A DNA stretch of 11,206 nt from Candidatus Sumerlaeota bacterium (GTDB lineage: Bacteria; CG03; SLGR01), in contig SLGR01000137.1 of assembly GCA_007136585.1 (NCBI GenBank), forward strand, positions 1-11,206, in the 5' to 3' direction. The notes beneath the pieces were generated by a model. That model did not search any database, was not told the origin of the DNA, and worked only from the letters and a program-made list of their open reading frames with translations. Each line of letters starts with the position of its first letter. Within the stretch, counting starts at the first letter, position 1. Positions 1,723-7,644 of this stretch are shown here, piece by piece. Position numbers and translations under genes: made by a program.

Positions 1723-2289
1723 ATGACCGATACTCTTAAAATACTTGTTTTCGTTATCCTTACGGGGCTCTGGCTCTCCGAATTTATATTTTTCTCTTCT
1801 CCAAAGAAAGAGTCTCTTGCGGGTAAAAAAAGTTTTTACCTGGTTCTTGCCGGAATTCTTGTTTCAATCCTGTTTTCTATAATAATGTTCTTAACTGAGA
1901 CTGCTTTAATAACCGGGAGAAACGGAGCACTCCTGAGGGGGGTCTCACTGGTCTTATATGCTTTCGGGGTATTTCTGCGGTACTGGTCTTCACGGCTTCT
2001 TGGGGAGGATTTTTCAAGGAGTATCGCGGTCCGCAGGGACCAGGACCTTGTTTCCCGGGGCCCTTACAGGGTTCTGAGGCATCCGCTTTATACGGCTCTG
2101 ATGATTATGGTGGTATCCGTCTCTCTTTTTCTTCAGAGCATCCCCGGCATTGTTTTTGCCTTAGTAGTAATGACGGCTGTCCTGGGGGTTAGGATTAAAG
2201 AGGAAGAAAGAATAATGGAGGAGCATTTAGGAGAAAGGTATATCCGCTGGAAAGAAAAACGTCAGCTTCTTATACCTTTTGTAATCTAA
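1723..2289 (+). CDS. ICMT/PEMT-type membrane methyltransferase
   Basis: This 188-residue integral membrane protein belongs to the isoprenylcysteine carboxyl methyltransferase / phospholipid methyltransferase group, which uses S-adenosylmethionine at the membrane surface. Hydrophobic segments lie at roughly 5-24, 37-58, 68-86 and 123-156. The family signature G-P-Y-R-V-L-R-H-P-L-Y (113-123) forms part of the cofactor site. It is followed by the usual acidic stretch I-K-E-E-E-R (158-163) and a Y-x-x-W segment near the C-terminus. It starts 4 bp after the DUF2141 gene and ends 6 bp before the first desaturase. Bacteria do not normally prenylate proteins for ICMT to act on, so the substrate is probably a small molecule or lipid. 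In this operon a carotenoid or other isoprenoid carboxylate is attractive, but that is inference. The ribosome binding site is weak. Confidence 0.85.
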   Translation: MTDTLKILVFVILTGLWLSEFIFFSSPKKESLAGKKSFYLVLAGILVSILFSIIMFLTETALITGRNGALLRGVSLVLYAFGVFLRYWSSRLLGEDFSRSIAVRRDQDLVSRGPYRVLRHPLYTALMIMVVSVSLFLQSIPGIVFALVVMTAVLGVRIKEEERIMEEHLGERYIRWKEKRQLLIPFVI

Positions 2290-2295
2290 GTAACT

Positions 2296-3774
2296 ATGAG
2301 TAAAAAAGCAATTGTGATAGGGGGCGGTCTGGGGGGCATCTCGGCGGCTGTAAGCCTCAGGAACGCCGGGTTTGAGGTTGAACTTTACGAGAAGAACGGG
2401 CACCTCGGAGGAAAACTCAACGTTCTCAAAAAAGACGGGTTCTCATTTGATCTGGGCCCTTCCATACTTACATTCCCCCATATATTTGAAGAACTCTTCA
2501 GGGGAGCCGGGAGGAAGATGGAGGATTATTTGAGTATAGTGGAGCCCGGGGTTCACTGGAGGTGTTTCTTTGAGGACGGGGAAAGAATAGACCTTCTTAA
2601 GGATCTGGAAAAGATAAAGCCGTCCAGCACCTGTATATCTGATAAGGATATTGAAGATCTCAGAAGTTTCCTGGAATATTCAGAGAAACTTTACAGTTCT
2701 GTAAAGAGCGGTTACTTTGAGCGGGGGACGGATACTTTTCTCCAGGCTGTAAGAACTTACGGGGTTCTTAAAAGCCTTTCAGGGTTTGATATTTTCTCCA
2801 CAATGCACGAAGGGGTGAGAAGGCGCATAAAAAATGAACACCTCTGCCACGTTATTGATTTCTTTGTAAAGTACGTGGGCTCCTCCCCGTACAGGGCCCC
2901 GGCTGTGCTTAATATGATTCCTTACGGACAGTTTGAGTTCGGACTCTGGTATGTGGAAGGCGGTATGTATAACCTGGCTCTTGCCCTTAAGAAACTTATG
3001 GAGGATACAGGGGTAAAAATAAATTTAAATACGGAGATAAAAGAACTTAAGATTACAGACGGCAGGATAAGCGCAGCCGTTACTTCCGGAGGGGAAAAGA
3101 TAAAAGGCGAGGTGTTTATCAGTAATATGGAGGTCATACCCGCATACCGGGCCCTTACCCGCGAACCGGAAAAGTTTATAAAAAAATATGATAAATTCGA
3201 ACCGGCCTGCTCGGGACTGGTCATACATCTCGGGACAGATAAGGAGTTCCCCTCCCTGGCCCACCATAATTTCTTTTTCTCAGGCGATCCCGAAAAACAT
3301 TTTGACGATGTCTTCGGGAAAAAAATACTACCCGGTGATCCTACGATATACCTTGTCGCCCCTAAGCGCACCGATAAGACGGTAGCCCCGGAAGGGTGCG
3401 ATAATATAAAAATACTTCCCCATATACCGTACCTGCAGGATGAGCCTTTCTCGGAGGAGGATTATATGCTTCTCAGGGAAAGGGTTCTGGATAAACTTGA
3501 AAGGATGGGTTTGCAGGGGTTAAGGGGAAGCATTATCACCGAAGATATCTGGACCCCTGAGGATATTAAAAAGAATTATCTCTCCAACAGGGGGGCTATA
3601 TACGGCGTGGTTTCGGATAAAAAGAAAAATACGGGGTTCAAGGCGCCAAAGAGAAGCGGTAAGTACCCCAACCTCTACTTTGTCGGGGGGAGCGTAAACC
3701 CCGGAGGTGGTATGCCTATGGTAACCTTATCCGGGCAGCAGGCTGCCGGGTTCATCAGGGAAGATAATGCTTGA
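2296..3774 (+). CDS. CrtI/CrtN/CrtD-family carotenoid desaturase or oxidase
   Basis: This 492-residue FAD-dependent amine-oxidase-fold enzyme has an N-terminal dinucleotide-binding motif, IGGGLGG (8-14), an acidic residue binding the ribose at Glu32, and the H-L-G-G-K segment (36-40) typical of carotenoid desaturases. The C-terminal FAD signature is present as Y-F-V-G-G-S-V-N-P-G-G-G-M-P (461-474). Members add double bonds to phytoene-type backbones or oxidise terminal methyl groups to aldehydes. The G-G-S-V-x-P-G-G-G-x-P form recalls CrtD-type 3,4-desaturases and CrtP-like oxidases more than plain CrtI, where G-T-H-P-G is usual; here Asn replaces the common His. It overlaps the aldehyde dehydrogenase gene by 8 bp, which supports coupled expression and a shared pathway. 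The family is secure. Whether it desaturates, hydroxylates or oxidises cannot be decided from sequence alone. Confidence 0.88.
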   Translation: MSKKAIVIGGGLGGISAAVSLRNAGFEVELYEKNGHLGGKLNVLKKDGFSFDLGPSILTFPHIFEELFRGAGRKMEDYLSIVEPGVHWRCFFEDGERIDLLKDLEKIKPSSTCISDKDIEDLRSFLEYSEKLYSSVKSGYFERGTDTFLQAVRTYGVLKSLSGFDIFSTMHEGVRRRIKNEHLCHVIDFFVKYVGSSPYRAPAVLNMIPYGQFEFGLWYVEGGMYNLALALKKLMEDTGVKINLNTEIKELKITDGRISAAVTSGGEKIKGEVFISNMEVIPAYRALTREPEKFIKKYDKFEPACSGLVIHLGTDKEFPSLAHHNFFFSGDPEKHFDDVFGKKILPGDPTIYLVAPKRTDKTVAPEGCDNIKILPHIPYLQDEPFSEEDYMLLRERVLDKLERMGLQGLRGSIITEDIWTPEDIKKNYLSNRGAIYGVVSDKKKNTGFKAPKRSGKYPNLYFVGGSVNPGGGMPMVTLSGQQAAGFIREDNA

Positions 3775-5137
3775 TAAGATAGTAAATTCCCAGAAAGAGT
3801 ATTTCAAAAAAGGGAATACGAAAAATATAGGTTTCCGGATAGAGCAGCTTAAAAAACTCAGATCAGCGATCCTTAAAAACGAGACCGATATAATGAGGGC
3901 GATCCGCCTTGATCTGGGCAGGGCTGATACAGAGATATATACAAGCGAGATATATACTGTTATTTACGAGCTGGATCTTTTTATAAAAAACCTCAGGAAA
4001 TGGGTCAGACCCGGAAAAATAAAAACACCCCTTGCTTTGAAACCGGGTAAAAGCAGGGTTTACCTGGAGCCCCTGGGGACGGTTTTAATACTGGCTCCCT
4101 GGAATTATCCTTTCCAGCTTTTATTTGCTCCTCTTACAGGGGCTATAGCTGCGGGAAACTGCGTTACGGTAAAACCATCGGAGGTATCCTCAAATACGGC
4201 AGGGGTGATATCCGGAATCATCAAGGAAACTTTTGAGCGCGGTTATATAGACTGTATTGAAGGCGGACCAGGTGAGGCGGAAGAGCTGACAAGGCAGGCT
4301 TTTGGCCATATCTTTTTTACAGGAAGCGCTGGGATAGGCCGGAGAGTTTTAAGAAACGCCGCCGAAAACCTCACCCCTGTAACTCTGGAGCTGGGGGGCA
4401 AATGCCCCTGTATAGTTACGGAAGAGGCGCCCTTGAGGAAAAGCGCAAGGAGGATAGCCTGGGGAAAATTCTTTAACGCCGGTCAGACCTGCCTGGCCCC
4501 GGATTATATTTTAGCCCATTCCTCAATTAAAGAAGAGCTGGTAAAAGAGTTAAGAGCCTCGGTAAAAGGTTTTTACGGGGGGGACCCTTCAAAGAGCAGC
4601 GATTACGGCAGGATAATAAACGAAAATCATTTTGATCGTCTGCTGAAACTTGTCCAGGGTAAAAATCCTGATAACTTCGGTTCTGACCGTGATAAACTAT
4701 ATATCTCTCCTGCGGTAATAGATAATATCTCCCGGGAAGATGATATTATGAGAGAGGAGATATTCGGGCCTCTCCTCCCGGTGCTTGAGTACGAAGAAAT
4801 TGAAGAGGCAGCCGCTTATTTATCCTCCGGGCCCGCCCCTCTTAATATTTACCTTTTCACAGGGGATGAAGGGAAAAAGAGAGAGATAATAGAAAATACA
4901 AGTTCCGGGGCAGTTACAGTAAACGATGTGCTTATACAGGCTTTTTCCCCTTACCTTCCCTTTGGCGGAGTGGGAGAAAGCGGTATGGGAAAATACAGGG
5001 GAAGAACCTCTCTTTTGACTTTTTCAAACAGGAAAAGTTTAATGGAGAGAAGTTTTTTCGCGGATTTCAAGTACAGGTATCCTCCTTATAAAACTCCGCT
5101 GGATAAACTGAAGAAGTATCTGAAACTCTTGAGGTGA
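3767..5137 (+). CDS. Aldehyde dehydrogenase, class 3-type; possibly carotenal dehydrogenase
   Basis: This 456-residue NAD(P)-dependent aldehyde dehydrogenase is of the ALDH3 type (about 450-490 residues). Visible elements are the P-W-N-Y-P-F segment (111-116, catalytic Asn113), the cofactor motif F-F-T-G-S (183-187), the general-base Glu208 in L-E-L-G-G, and the nucleophile Cys242 in N-A-G-Q-T-C. The C-terminus carries the R-Y-P-P-Y segment common in ALDH3 enzymes. A Shine-Dalgarno AGGGAAG (3757-3763) lies just before the start, which overlaps the desaturase stop by 8 bp. The gene sits between two carotenoid-type desaturases. In staphyloxanthin biosynthesis an aldehyde dehydrogenase converts a C30 carotenal made by CrtP to the acid, so the analogous role here is oxidation of a carotenoid aldehyde. 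A general fatty or aromatic aldehyde role is the alternative. All catalytic residues are present. Confidence 0.9.
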   Translation: MLDKIVNSQKEYFKKGNTKNIGFRIEQLKKLRSAILKNETDIMRAIRLDLGRADTEIYTSEIYTVIYELDLFIKNLRKWVRPGKIKTPLALKPGKSRVYLEPLGTVLILAPWNYPFQLLFAPLTGAIAAGNCVTVKPSEVSSNTAGVISGIIKETFERGYIDCIEGGPGEAEELTRQAFGHIFFTGSAGIGRRVLRNAAENLTPVTLELGGKCPCIVTEEAPLRKSARRIAWGKFFNAGQTCLAPDYILAHSSIKEELVKELRASVKGFYGGDPSKSSDYGRIINENHFDRLLKLVQGKNPDNFGSDRDKLYISPAVIDNISREDDIMREEIFGPLLPVLEYEEIEEAAAYLSSGPAPLNIYLFTGDEGKKREIIENTSSGAVTVNDVLIQAFSPYLPFGGVGESGMGKYRGRTSLLTFSNRKSLMERSFFADFKYRYPPYKTPLDKLKKYLKLLR

Positions 5138-5141
5138 AAAA

Positions 5142-6677
5142 ATGGAAAAGAAAAAGATCATAGTAGTAGGGGCGGGGCCCGGGGGGCTGACCGGCGGAAT
5201 GATTTTAGCTCACCGGGGGGCCGAGGTGGAGATTTTTGAGAAAGAGGACCGCCCGGGAGGAAGAAATAGGGATATAACCCTGGGGGATTTCAAGTTTGAC
5301 ACTGGCCCCACTTTCCTGATGATGAAGTATGTCCTGGAGGAGATGTTCGAGGAGACGGGGCGCCGGGCATCGGATTACCTGGAGTTTGTAAAACTTGACC
5401 CCTTCTACAGGCTGCAGTTCCCGGATAAAAGGTTCTACCCCTCCGGAAATACTGAGAAGATGAAAGAGCAGATAGCAGAAGTCTTTCCCGGGAACGAAAA
5501 AGGGTTTGAGAAGTTCATGAAAAAAGAGGGGAAACGGTTTGAGAGCCTGATCCCGTGCCTTCAGAAGGATTACGCAAAACTCAGGGCTTTCCTGGACCCC
5601 ATATTCCTGAAGGCCGCTCCCCGGCTCGCCGTGGGCAGAACTTTATACGAAAACCTGGGAAGATACTATGATTCAGAGGAACTTAAACTTGCTTTTACCT
5701 TCCAGTCAAAGTACCTCGGTATGTCCCCCTGGGACTGCCCCGCTCTTTTTACAATCCTCTCGTATATGGAGTACAAATACAGCATCTACCATGTTACGGG
5801 GGGGCTTAACATGATCTCAAAGGCGATGGAGAAGGTCTTTAAAGAAGAGGGGGGGAAGGTTCATTACAACTCGGAGGTAAAGAGGGTTATAACCGAGGAG
5901 AGGAAGGTAAGGGGGGTTGAGCTTTCCGGGGGAGAGAAGGTAATGGCGGATGAAGTGATAATAAACTCTGATTTCGGTTATACCGCCACAAACCTTCTGC
6001 CCCGGGAAAAACTTAAGAAATGGTCCCCGGAGAAACTTGAGAAGAAGAATTTTTCCTGCGGGACCTTTATGCTTTACCTGGGGCTGGGGAAAAAGTACGA
6101 TACGGTTAACCATCACAATATTATCTTTGCCGATGATTACCGGGGTAACGTTGAGACGATGTTCAACGAACATAAAATGACGGATGATTTCTCATTTTAT
6201 ATTCAGAACCCCTCTGTCACCGATCCCACTCTTGCCCCCGAAGGAAAATCTGCGGTATACGTGCTTGTCCCTGTGCCCAATAACAGGAGCAAAATAGACT
6301 GGGGTAAGGAAGCTCCGGATTTCAGGGAGAGGGTAATAGAGAGGATAATCCAGAGGACAGAGATGAAAGATATACGGGAGCATATAGAGGCGGAAAAGAT
6401 GATAACGCCCAGAGAGTGGGAGGATGAGTATAACGTCTATATAGCAGCCGAGTTCAACCTGGGCCACGACCTGAACCAGATGCTCTATTTCCGCCCCCAT
6501 AATAAGTTTGAGGAACTTGATAACCTTTACCTGACGGGGGGAGGGACCCACCCGGGGAGCGGACTCCCGACAATATACGAATCAGGCAGGATCAGCGCCA
6601 ACCTTATCTCCAGGAAATACGGGCTCCCTTATAAAAAGCCGTCGTTTGACCCAAAAAAGATTCTTGAAAACGCATAA
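5142..6677 (+). CDS. CrtI-like phytoene desaturase
   Basis: This 511-residue FAD-dependent desaturase has the N-terminal motif V-G-A-G-P-G-G-L (9-16), the acidic Glu33, and R-P-G-G-R (37-41), a signature of CrtI/CrtN enzymes. The C-terminal FAD motif reads L-T-G-G-G-T-H-P-G-S-G-L-P (464-476), the classic carotenoid-desaturase form with G-T-H-P-G. Length and architecture match phytoene/diapophytoene desaturases, which insert several double bonds at the membrane surface to give neurosporene or lycopene-type products. A ribosome binding site GAGGTG (5131-5136) precedes the ATG and overlaps the end of the aldehyde dehydrogenase gene. It differs clearly from the desaturase at 2296, so the two are likely to do different steps rather than being a recent duplication. 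The expected preceding enzyme, phytoene synthase, is not in the window. Confidence 0.9.
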   Translation: MEKKKIIVVGAGPGGLTGGMILAHRGAEVEIFEKEDRPGGRNRDITLGDFKFDTGPTFLMMKYVLEEMFEETGRRASDYLEFVKLDPFYRLQFPDKRFYPSGNTEKMKEQIAEVFPGNEKGFEKFMKKEGKRFESLIPCLQKDYAKLRAFLDPIFLKAAPRLAVGRTLYENLGRYYDSEELKLAFTFQSKYLGMSPWDCPALFTILSYMEYKYSIYHVTGGLNMISKAMEKVFKEEGGKVHYNSEVKRVITEERKVRGVELSGGEKVMADEVIINSDFGYTATNLLPREKLKKWSPEKLEKKNFSCGTFMLYLGLGKKYDTVNHHNIIFADDYRGNVETMFNEHKMTDDFSFYIQNPSVTDPTLAPEGKSAVYVLVPVPNNRSKIDWGKEAPDFRERVIERIIQRTEMKDIREHIEAEKMITPREWEDEYNVYIAAEFNLGHDLNQMLYFRPHNKFEELDNLYLTGGGTHPGSGLPTIYESGRISANLISRKYGLPYKKPSFDPKKILENA

Positions 6678-7644
6678 TACAGAACCCGTCATAGTATGCA
6701 GCAAGTGCCTGGGGTTTGCCGCCTGCCGGTATAACGGGGAAATAATCCCCGCCCCCTACATAGAAAAGCTGGGTAAATTCTGCCGGATAATAACGGTATG
6801 CCCGGAAGTTTCAATAGGGCTGCCGGTTCCCAGAAAACCCCTGCGCCTTGTAAAAGTAAAAGATAAACTAAACCTTATACAATCCGAGACAGAGATAGAC
6901 TGGACAGATAAAATGGAAAAGTTTTCCCGGGAATTCCTGGATAACCTGGGCGAGGCGCACGGTTTTATACTCAAGTACAAGTCGCCCTCGTGCGGGATGC
7001 TGGCGGCAAAATATTACTCTTCAATGGAGAAGGGAAGTGTCGCTGGAAAAGGTCCGGGGCTTTTCGGAAAAGCCGTAAAAGAACGCTTCCCCGGACACCC
7101 GGCCGAGACGGAAACCAGGCTGACAAACTTTTCCATAAGGGAGCATTTTCTTTTAAAGCTTTTTACCCTGGCCCGGTTCTCTGAAGTAAGAAAGAGCGGG
7201 AAACCAAAGGATCTTATAGATTTTCACTCGGAAAACAAGCTTCTTCTTCTTGCCTACCACCAGGAAAATATGAGGAAAATGGGGAAAATCATAGCGGCTC
7301 AGAAACAAAACGGGATAAAAGAAACAATTGAACTGTACGAGGAGCTCCTTATAAAATCTTTTAAGACCGGGGCCTCGCATAATTCGCATATAAATGTCAT
7401 TGAGCATGCTGCCGGGTATTTCTCAGAAGAGATTAAAAAATCCGAGAGAGAGTATATTGAGGGACTGAAATCGGATTACAGGGGTAACAGGGCCCCCCTG
7501 AGCGCGCTCAGGTCGGTCATATGTTCTTATATAGTAAGGTTTGATATAGAGTACCTTAAGCGGCAGAGTTACTTTAACCCCTACCCTGACGGACTTGTTG
7601 AGGTAAGTGATTCCGGGAAGGGCAGGGACCTCAGGCATATATGA
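6664..7644 (+). CDS. DUF523-DUF1722 fusion protein (TudS/YbgA-type)
   Basis: The N-terminal half (about 8-160) is a DUF523 domain: C-S-K-C-L-G-F-A-A-C-R-Y-N-G (12-25), C-P-E-V-S-I-G-L-P (46-54) and K-S-P-S-C-G (106-111). Conserved cysteines of this family bind a [4Fe-4S] cluster in TudS thiouracil desulfurases. The C-terminal half (about 181-312) is DUF1722 (YbgA): F-H-S-E-N-K-L-L-L-L-A-Y, a central S-H-N-S-H-I-N-V-I-E-H-A-A-G-Y-F block, and the ending Q-S-Y-F-N-P-Y-P. This fusion is a known family, but its role is not established. Its place inside an isoprenoid operon is odd and may point to sulfur or redox chemistry, or simply co-regulation under stress. I chose TTG at 6664, which overlaps the desaturase by 14 bp; another TTG at 6646 would add six residues. 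Neither has a convincing ribosome binding site, so translational coupling is likely. Confidence 0.85.
   Translation: MKTHNTEPVIVCSKCLGFAACRYNGEIIPAPYIEKLGKFCRIITVCPEVSIGLPVPRKPLRLVKVKDKLNLIQSETEIDWTDKMEKFSREFLDNLGEAHGFILKYKSPSCGMLAAKYYSSMEKGSVAGKGPGLFGKAVKERFPGHPAETETRLTNFSIREHFLLKLFTLARFSEVRKSGKPKDLIDFHSENKLLLLAYHQENMRKMGKIIAAQKQNGIKETIELYEELLIKSFKTGASHNSHINVIEHAAGYFSEEIKKSEREYIEGLKSDYRGNRAPLSALRSVICSYIVRFDIEYLKRQSYFNPYPDGLVEVSDSGKGRDLRHI

Follow-up and report, generated by a model that had tools for sequence, protein, structure and literature searches.

Described pathways and the window

One of the closest described systems is the staphyloxanthin pathway of Staphylococcus (CrtM, CrtN, CrtP, AldH, CrtQ and CrtO), in which a CrtN-type desaturase, a CrtP-type oxidase and an aldehyde dehydrogenase (ALDH) lead to a terminal carotenoic acid that is capped with a sugar and an acyl group. 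In Planococcus and Halobacillus, a second pathway yields methyl 5-glucosyl-5,6-dihydro-4,4'-diapolycopenoate, whose carboxyl group is a methyl ester (PMC8502411, PMC8933910). Planococcus, Halobacillus, Bacillus and Methylobacterium have all yielded carotenoid methyl esters, and the publications consulted leave the enzyme that forms them unassigned or call it unknown. Here, we describe a group of carotenoid-type (crt) genes that is headed by a candidate for this enzyme. It lies on contig SLGR01000137.1, which at its complete length of 11,206 bp is the window of this analysis and belongs to an assembly (G000) of 1.88 Mb in 257 contigs that is 88% complete.

Four co-directional genes on the + strand make up the group: an integral-membrane methyltransferase of the ICMT family (1723-2289; PF04191/PF04140), a CrtP-type oxidase (2296-3774), a class-3 (ALDH3-type) aldehyde dehydrogenase (3767-5137; Aldedh, 277 bits) and a CrtN-type 4,4'-diapo desaturase (5142-6677). 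Consecutive genes are separated by 6 bp, joined by an 8-bp overlap (3767-3774) and separated by 4 bp, respectively. The preliminary description, made from the sequence alone, had listed these open reading frames in this order and pointed to the overlap of the oxidase and dehydrogenase genes, and both were found as described. The nearest named relatives of the window are two Elusimicrobia loci from soda-lake sediment (L033 and L042). Both keep the order ICMT-CrtP-ALDH-CrtN, at 62-90% identity, and the arrangement is thus far beyond chance.

It is quite likely that this operon represents one half, the tailoring steps, of a pathway to a linear carotenoid, probably of the C30 4,4'-diapo kind, that ends in a methyl ester. 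In such a pathway, CrtN would desaturate the backbone, CrtP would oxidize a methyl group at the chain end to the aldehyde, and the class-3 ALDH would convert the carotenal to a carotenoic acid. The ICMT-family enzyme, embedded in the membrane, would then transfer a methyl group from S-adenosylmethionine (SAM) to the carboxyl, which would carry this cap where staphyloxanthin carries a sugar and an acyl group. Each of these reactions, like the chain length, we infer from the enzyme families and their placement in trees. Desaturation, oxidation to a carotenoic acid and capping by methylation had been proposed in the preliminary description, and the methyl-ester step, although a prediction from genes, is now supported by comparative genomics.

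The window resembles the staphyloxanthin system in combining CrtN-type, CrtP-type and ALDH genes. In contrast to it, an ICMT gene lies 5' of crtP, and no CrtM, CrtQ or CrtO was found. Members of the same ICMT subfamily are encoded in genomes with the cluster type of Planococcus and Halobacillus, in many cases immediately 5' of a remote crtP, whereas the window holds its tailoring genes in one operon, and a CruF-like hydratase, a glycosyltransferase and an acyltransferase are not on the contig. Alphaproteobacterial C30 clusters (Azospirillum and Palleronia plasmids) also combine crtN-crtP with ALDH, but they include HpnCDE, an acyltransferase, a glycosyltransferase and a sulfotransferase, and ICMT is not in the cluster.

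A methyltransferase family associated with CrtP

The protein encoded at 1723-2289 scores above the Pfam gathering thresholds for PEMT/ICMT (56.8 and 55.2 bits vs 25 and 24). Its motif RHPxY...EE...G..Y..W...R, which covers the SAM site, is invariant across the set of CrtP-linked ICMTs. An AlphaFold prediction from six sequences (predicted local distance difference test 82, predicted template modeling (TM) score 0.80) matched best to the archaeal ICMT 4a2n of Methanosarcina acetivorans (TM 0.73, E 7.5e-5), which was the sole match passing E 0.001. The protein shares with 4a2n and with the eukaryotic ICMT 5v7p both the fold and a C-terminal catalytic motif, but only about 20% identity. By score, RHP...EE motif and fold, it thus belongs to the ICMT/PEMT-fold methyltransferases (PF04140/PF04191), as the preliminary description had it. 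Its 77 bits fall well under the cut-off of 160 bits of the protein-S-isoprenylcysteine O-methyltransferase equivalog NF040696, and it would therefore be ICMT-like in its action. The protein is probably a carotenoid carboxyl O-methyltransferase, and this is the function that we propose for it.

In a 61-row tree, which carries a long-branch warning among sequences on the outgroup side, the sampled ICMTs from CrtP genomes form one clade (38 rows, support 97/87) that is separate from other ICMT-family proteins. We propose this single clade as a CrtP-associated ICMT subfamily, whose members pair with several distinct CrtP lineages.

METHYLTRANSFERASE linkage to CRTP extends far beyond this lineage. 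For instance, ICMT genes are found directly 5' of crtP in three Elusimicrobia (no other CrtP genome came up among 16 searched in that phylum), as well as in the archaeal methanogen Methanohalarchaeum (L040) and in Acholeplasmataceae/Bacillota (L052 and L053, also G121). In the Acholeplasma-like genomes with ICMT-crtP, crtN and crtM lie on a different contig. Among named plasmid records, none was seen with ICMT beside crtP. CAAX-type proteases (M48 or Rce1-like) adjoin ICMT or sit near crtP at some loci (L052, 595-1851; L053, 459-1718; L039, 2146-2973).

The association was quantified in 299 genomes sampled evenly across the class Bacilli, with an ICMT profile (A1) built from six CrtP-linked ICMTs and a CrtP profile, each with its cut-off placed at a gap in the score list. 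Strong ICMT matches (130-162 bits; next 106, then at most 102) occur in 35 of these genomes, and CrtP (at least 674 bits; next 542, then at most 439) in 57. All 35 genomes with a strong ICMT also carry CrtP (Fisher p 6e-31, uncorrected for relatedness), and in 17 of them ICMT lies 23-34 bp 5' of crtP. The preliminary description had called for a survey of co-occurrence and a phylogeny of the two desaturases. Neither refuted it, and the survey showed the ICMT subfamily next to crtP in several sub-lineages of Bacilli as well as in Acholeplasma-like genomes, Methanohalarchaeum and Elusimicrobia.

Within the 57 CrtP Bacilli, ICMT also alternates with CrtO, which belongs to the staphyloxanthin cap: 21 have only CrtO, 32 only ICMT, three both and one neither (Fisher p 2e-11, again uncorrected for relatedness). 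Each of the three genomes with both caps (G179, G309 and G328) has two CrtPs. In G328, which was inspected, one crtP gene neighbors CrtO/CrtQ and the second neighbors ICMT. Genome-wide searches found no CrtO in the genome of the window, nor in G001, G004 or G105; judged by CrtO, a staphyloxanthin cluster is thus absent from the first three. Pfam gave no match to a glycosyltransferase or acyltransferase family on the contig, to which the glycosyltransferase search was confined. The absence of such genes that had been reported for the window therefore holds.

Known methyl esters point in the same direction. The seven-gene crt cluster of Planococcus maritimus leads to methyl 5-glucosyl-5,6-dihydro-4,4'-diapolycopenoate, with the acid and methyl steps unassigned and no genes for the carboxylic acid found within the cluster (PMC8502411). 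In three Bacilli genomes with ICMT (G400, G356 and G259), the main crt cluster consists of genes for a CruF-like protein, an acyltransferase, a GT2 glycosyltransferase, CrtNb, CrtM, a CrtN-like protein and CrtN, and G328 has the same cluster without GT2 at that place. The match between the cluster of these three genomes and that of P. maritimus supports, at the level of genes, the methyl-ester interpretation. In P. faecalis, functional CrtP2 and AldH are encoded remote from the crt cluster (PMC7764019). In Planococcus CP5-4, deletion of 3 kb affecting crtP and three more open reading frames gave a pigment without the methyl ester (PMC8933910); one of these reading frames may be the ICMT gene. 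For Methylobacterium extorquens PA1, an "unknown methyltransferase" has been proposed (PMC10448405). The seven-gene cluster order recurs in Exiguobacterium profundum PHM11, and the published 70-residue N-terminus of the ICMT of this strain is 77% identical to that of locus L122. The PHM11 ICMT appears among secretion predictions, with no carotenoid link drawn (PMC8851196). No publication linking ICMT to a carotenoid pathway was found in a search that left most of the subscription literature outside. The CrtP-linked ICMT group is probably the enzyme behind the carotenoid methyl esters of pigmented bacteria.

The two desaturase-like proteins exceed the 238-bit cut-off of NCBIfam TIGR02734 (crtI_fam), with 336 bits for the gene at 2296 and 479 bits for that at 5142, and both match Pfam Amino_oxidase. 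Their phylogeny was read from a 68-row quick tree without bootstrap, whose references came from annotated plasmids: Staphylococcus CrtP and CrtN, crtN/crtP-type pairs of Azospirillum and Palleronia, CrtI of Pantoea and Roseobacter, and CrtD of Roseobacter and Roseinatronobacter. The alphaproteobacterial CrtN and CrtP labels were assigned from position in C30-type clusters, the records saying only phytoene desaturase family. The 2296 protein falls in the CrtP clade (33 rows, support 98), separate from CrtN, CrtI and CrtD, inside a 16-row set (support 95) with staphylococcal CrtP (S. caprae and S. equorum), and this placement was repeated in a second tree. The 5142 protein falls in a CrtN-type clade (22 rows, support 100) with Azospirillum and Palleronia proteins, Staphylococcus CrtN being in the neighboring clade. 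The gene at 2296 had been labeled CrtD/CrtP-like. Of this label, the CrtP part stands and CrtD is rejected, as the protein missed both CrtD equivalog cut-offs (298 vs 500 and 291 vs 580 bits) and the CrtD references lie far outside in the tree, far also from the 5142 protein. The gene is thus inferred to be CrtP-type, oxidizing a terminal methyl group to an aldehyde.

The closest solved relatives of the ALDH are class-3 and fatty aldehyde dehydrogenases, which places it in class 3, and its translation contains the LELGGK and GQTC motifs (catalytic Glu and Cys). An ALDH adjoins crtP/crtN in many phyla, and conversion of the carotenal to carotenoic acid is proposed as its role. The Elusimicrobia CrtP and CrtN nest among proteins of Planctomycetota, Actinomycetota and other metagenome-assembled genomes (L034-L038, L056 and L069), several from the same soda-lake sediments, which suggests transfer between phyla.

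Backbone supply and alternative explanations

Several observations weigh against a methyl-ester pathway as proposed here. One concerns the backbone. No gene of the squalene/phytoene synthase family (SQS_PSY) was found in the genome of the window, either with PF00494 (E<=1e-3 and E<=10) or with a homologue from the same order as query, and a complete C30/C40 pathway, for which such a gene is needed, is thus not seen in this genome. The same holds, even at E<=10, for the related and 97%-complete G001. The upstream end of the operon is interrupted by an insertion sequence (IS) in this genome. ICMT lies away from crtP in 18 of the 35 Bacilli genomes, and many CrtP/CrtN/ALDH clusters of other phyla have no detected ICMT of this clade. 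ICMT and CrtO coexist outside the Bacilli sample, in Acholeplasma-like G115, G116 and G121 and in G118 of the Planctomycetes-Verrucomicrobia-Chlamydiae (PVC) group, so that one cap does not strictly exclude the other. Finally, a class I SAM methyltransferase adjoins crtN in two inspected Bacilli crt clusters (L147, 13515-14576; L148, 13324-14355) and could methylate in those two Bacilli. This gene is absent from the G259 cluster and from the window, and is listed also in E. profundum. In many clusters of Planctomycetota, Verrucomicrobiota and Lentisphaerota, crtP has no ICMT neighbor, a pattern that agrees with a cap varying between lineages better than with a core gene.

In all, SQS_PSY went undetected, even at E<=10, in 15 CrtP/CrtN genomes (G000, G001, G099-G105, G112, G117-G119, G122 and G125), mostly draft metagenome-assembled genomes. 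Thirteen other CrtP genomes have it, including G004 of the same order, and G006, also of this order, has one. As the assembly of the window is 88% complete, the absence there may be an assembly gap. Either draft assemblies repeatedly miss the gene or these lineages use another backbone source. A divergent synthase in the assembly was considered and dropped when the PF00494 and homologue searches gave no match. Genes of about 300 codons near crtP were likewise considered as an unrecognized synthase, and the candidates turned out to be UvdE, UbiA, TPR, GAPDH-like and LytB proteins.

The missing synthase is also what lends some appeal to a set of enzymes acting on a head-to-tail polyprenyl chain, such as a quinone tail or a polyprenol, in place of a squalene- or phytoene-derived carotenoid. 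The gap recurs in the 15 genomes named above, among them the large-contig archaeal G105; a MenA-like UbiA and a polyprenyl synthase are encoded downstream in the window, and a UbiA gene lies 5' of crtP in L039. Most of these genomes are draft assemblies, however, 13 other CrtP genomes do have SQS_PSY, and the enzymes group with characterized carotenoid proteins of CrtP/CrtN type. We consider the polyprenyl substrate distinctly improbable. To our knowledge, there is no known product of CrtN/CrtP-type tailoring on a head-to-tail polyprenyl chain.

A somewhat less improbable, though still unlikely, explanation keeps the carotenoid and takes away the ester: the ICMT-family enzyme could methylate something else, such as a prenylated or lipid hydroxyl or thiol or another isoprenoid acid, and be merely co-regulated with crtP. 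Enzymes of the ICMT/PEMT fold are known to have a variety of lipids and small molecules as substrates, and the protein has weak NCBIfam matches to LmtA and MddA. In L052 and L053 the ICMT gene is paired divergently with a CAAX-type M48 protease, and half of the Bacilli genomes with ICMT have it unlinked to crtP. Such freedom of substrate agrees poorly with the confinement of ICMT to CrtP genomes in the Bacilli sample, with tight linkage recurring in distant lineages, an archaeon included, with the single clade of CrtP-linked ICMTs and with their alternation with CrtO. It is very improbable that the acid is instead capped, as in staphyloxanthin, with a sugar and an acyl chain by unlinked genes. 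Genes for AldH, CrtQ and CrtO can sit away from crt clusters, and the four genomes with both ICMT and CrtO show that the caps can occur together, but CrtO was found in none of G000, G001, G004 and G105, and no glycosyltransferase lies on the contig or beside the L033 and L042 clusters among the genes examined. A methyl cap placed by the ICMT-family enzyme is therefore preferred.

Genomic neighborhood and meaning

On the + strand, the window reads IS, DUF2141, ICMT, CrtP, ALDH, CrtN, DUF523-DUF1722, TPR protein, MenA-like UbiA, polyprenyl synthase and ArsR. The IS (1-1294, +) is of Mutator/IS256 type and has terminal inverted repeats of 27 bp (78%). On the right, it enters the signal-peptide region of the DUF2141 gene (1294-1718, +; PF09912, 89 bits), breaking the 5' end of that gene and cutting the crt genes from an upstream part of the operon that is found in relatives. 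With the IS-fused start excluded, the DUF2141 protein is 58% identical to that of L042. DUF2141 recurs beside crtN/crtP clusters, for instance upstream of the pair in Palleronia and before a second crtN in the related Elusimicrobium G004, where this second locus (L154) reads DUF2141-crtN-DUF523/DUF1722. The gene that follows crtN in the window (6646-7644, +; PF04463 and PF08349) belongs to the same operon, and TTG at 6664 may be its true start. It encodes a DUF523-DUF1722 fusion that is repeatedly found 3' of crtN in these Elusimicrobia (L042, 11288-12325; L154, 8388-9455).

In the relatives, genes for MsrB, MsrA, a flavodoxin-fold oxidoreductase and UvdE lie immediately upstream of the ICMT-crt genes (L042, 3468-6399; L033, 292-2773), with DUF2141 in addition in L042. 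Together with the ICMT-crt genes, they likely form an operon against oxidative and ultraviolet stress, and such damage-related genes around the operon would fit a photoprotective pigment.

A bolder reading, to which we give little credence, is that this previously unrecognized ICMT subfamily is a general carotenoid carboxyl O-methyltransferase of bacteria and archaea, and that it arose as a substitute for capping CrtP-derived carotenoic acids with sugar and acyl groups. Where squalene/phytoene synthase genes are missing, the CrtN-CrtP-AldH-ICMT set would then use a backbone from an unknown synthase or a non-carotenoid polyprenyl chain. As it stands, genome linkage defines a specific candidate family for carotenoid carboxyl methylation. 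Its distribution would reflect a recurring choice between two caps, glycosyl/acyl and methyl, for the same oxidized carotenoid, and the analysis extends the range of C30-type tailoring genes for carotenoids to Elusimicrobiota and a methanogenic archaeon.

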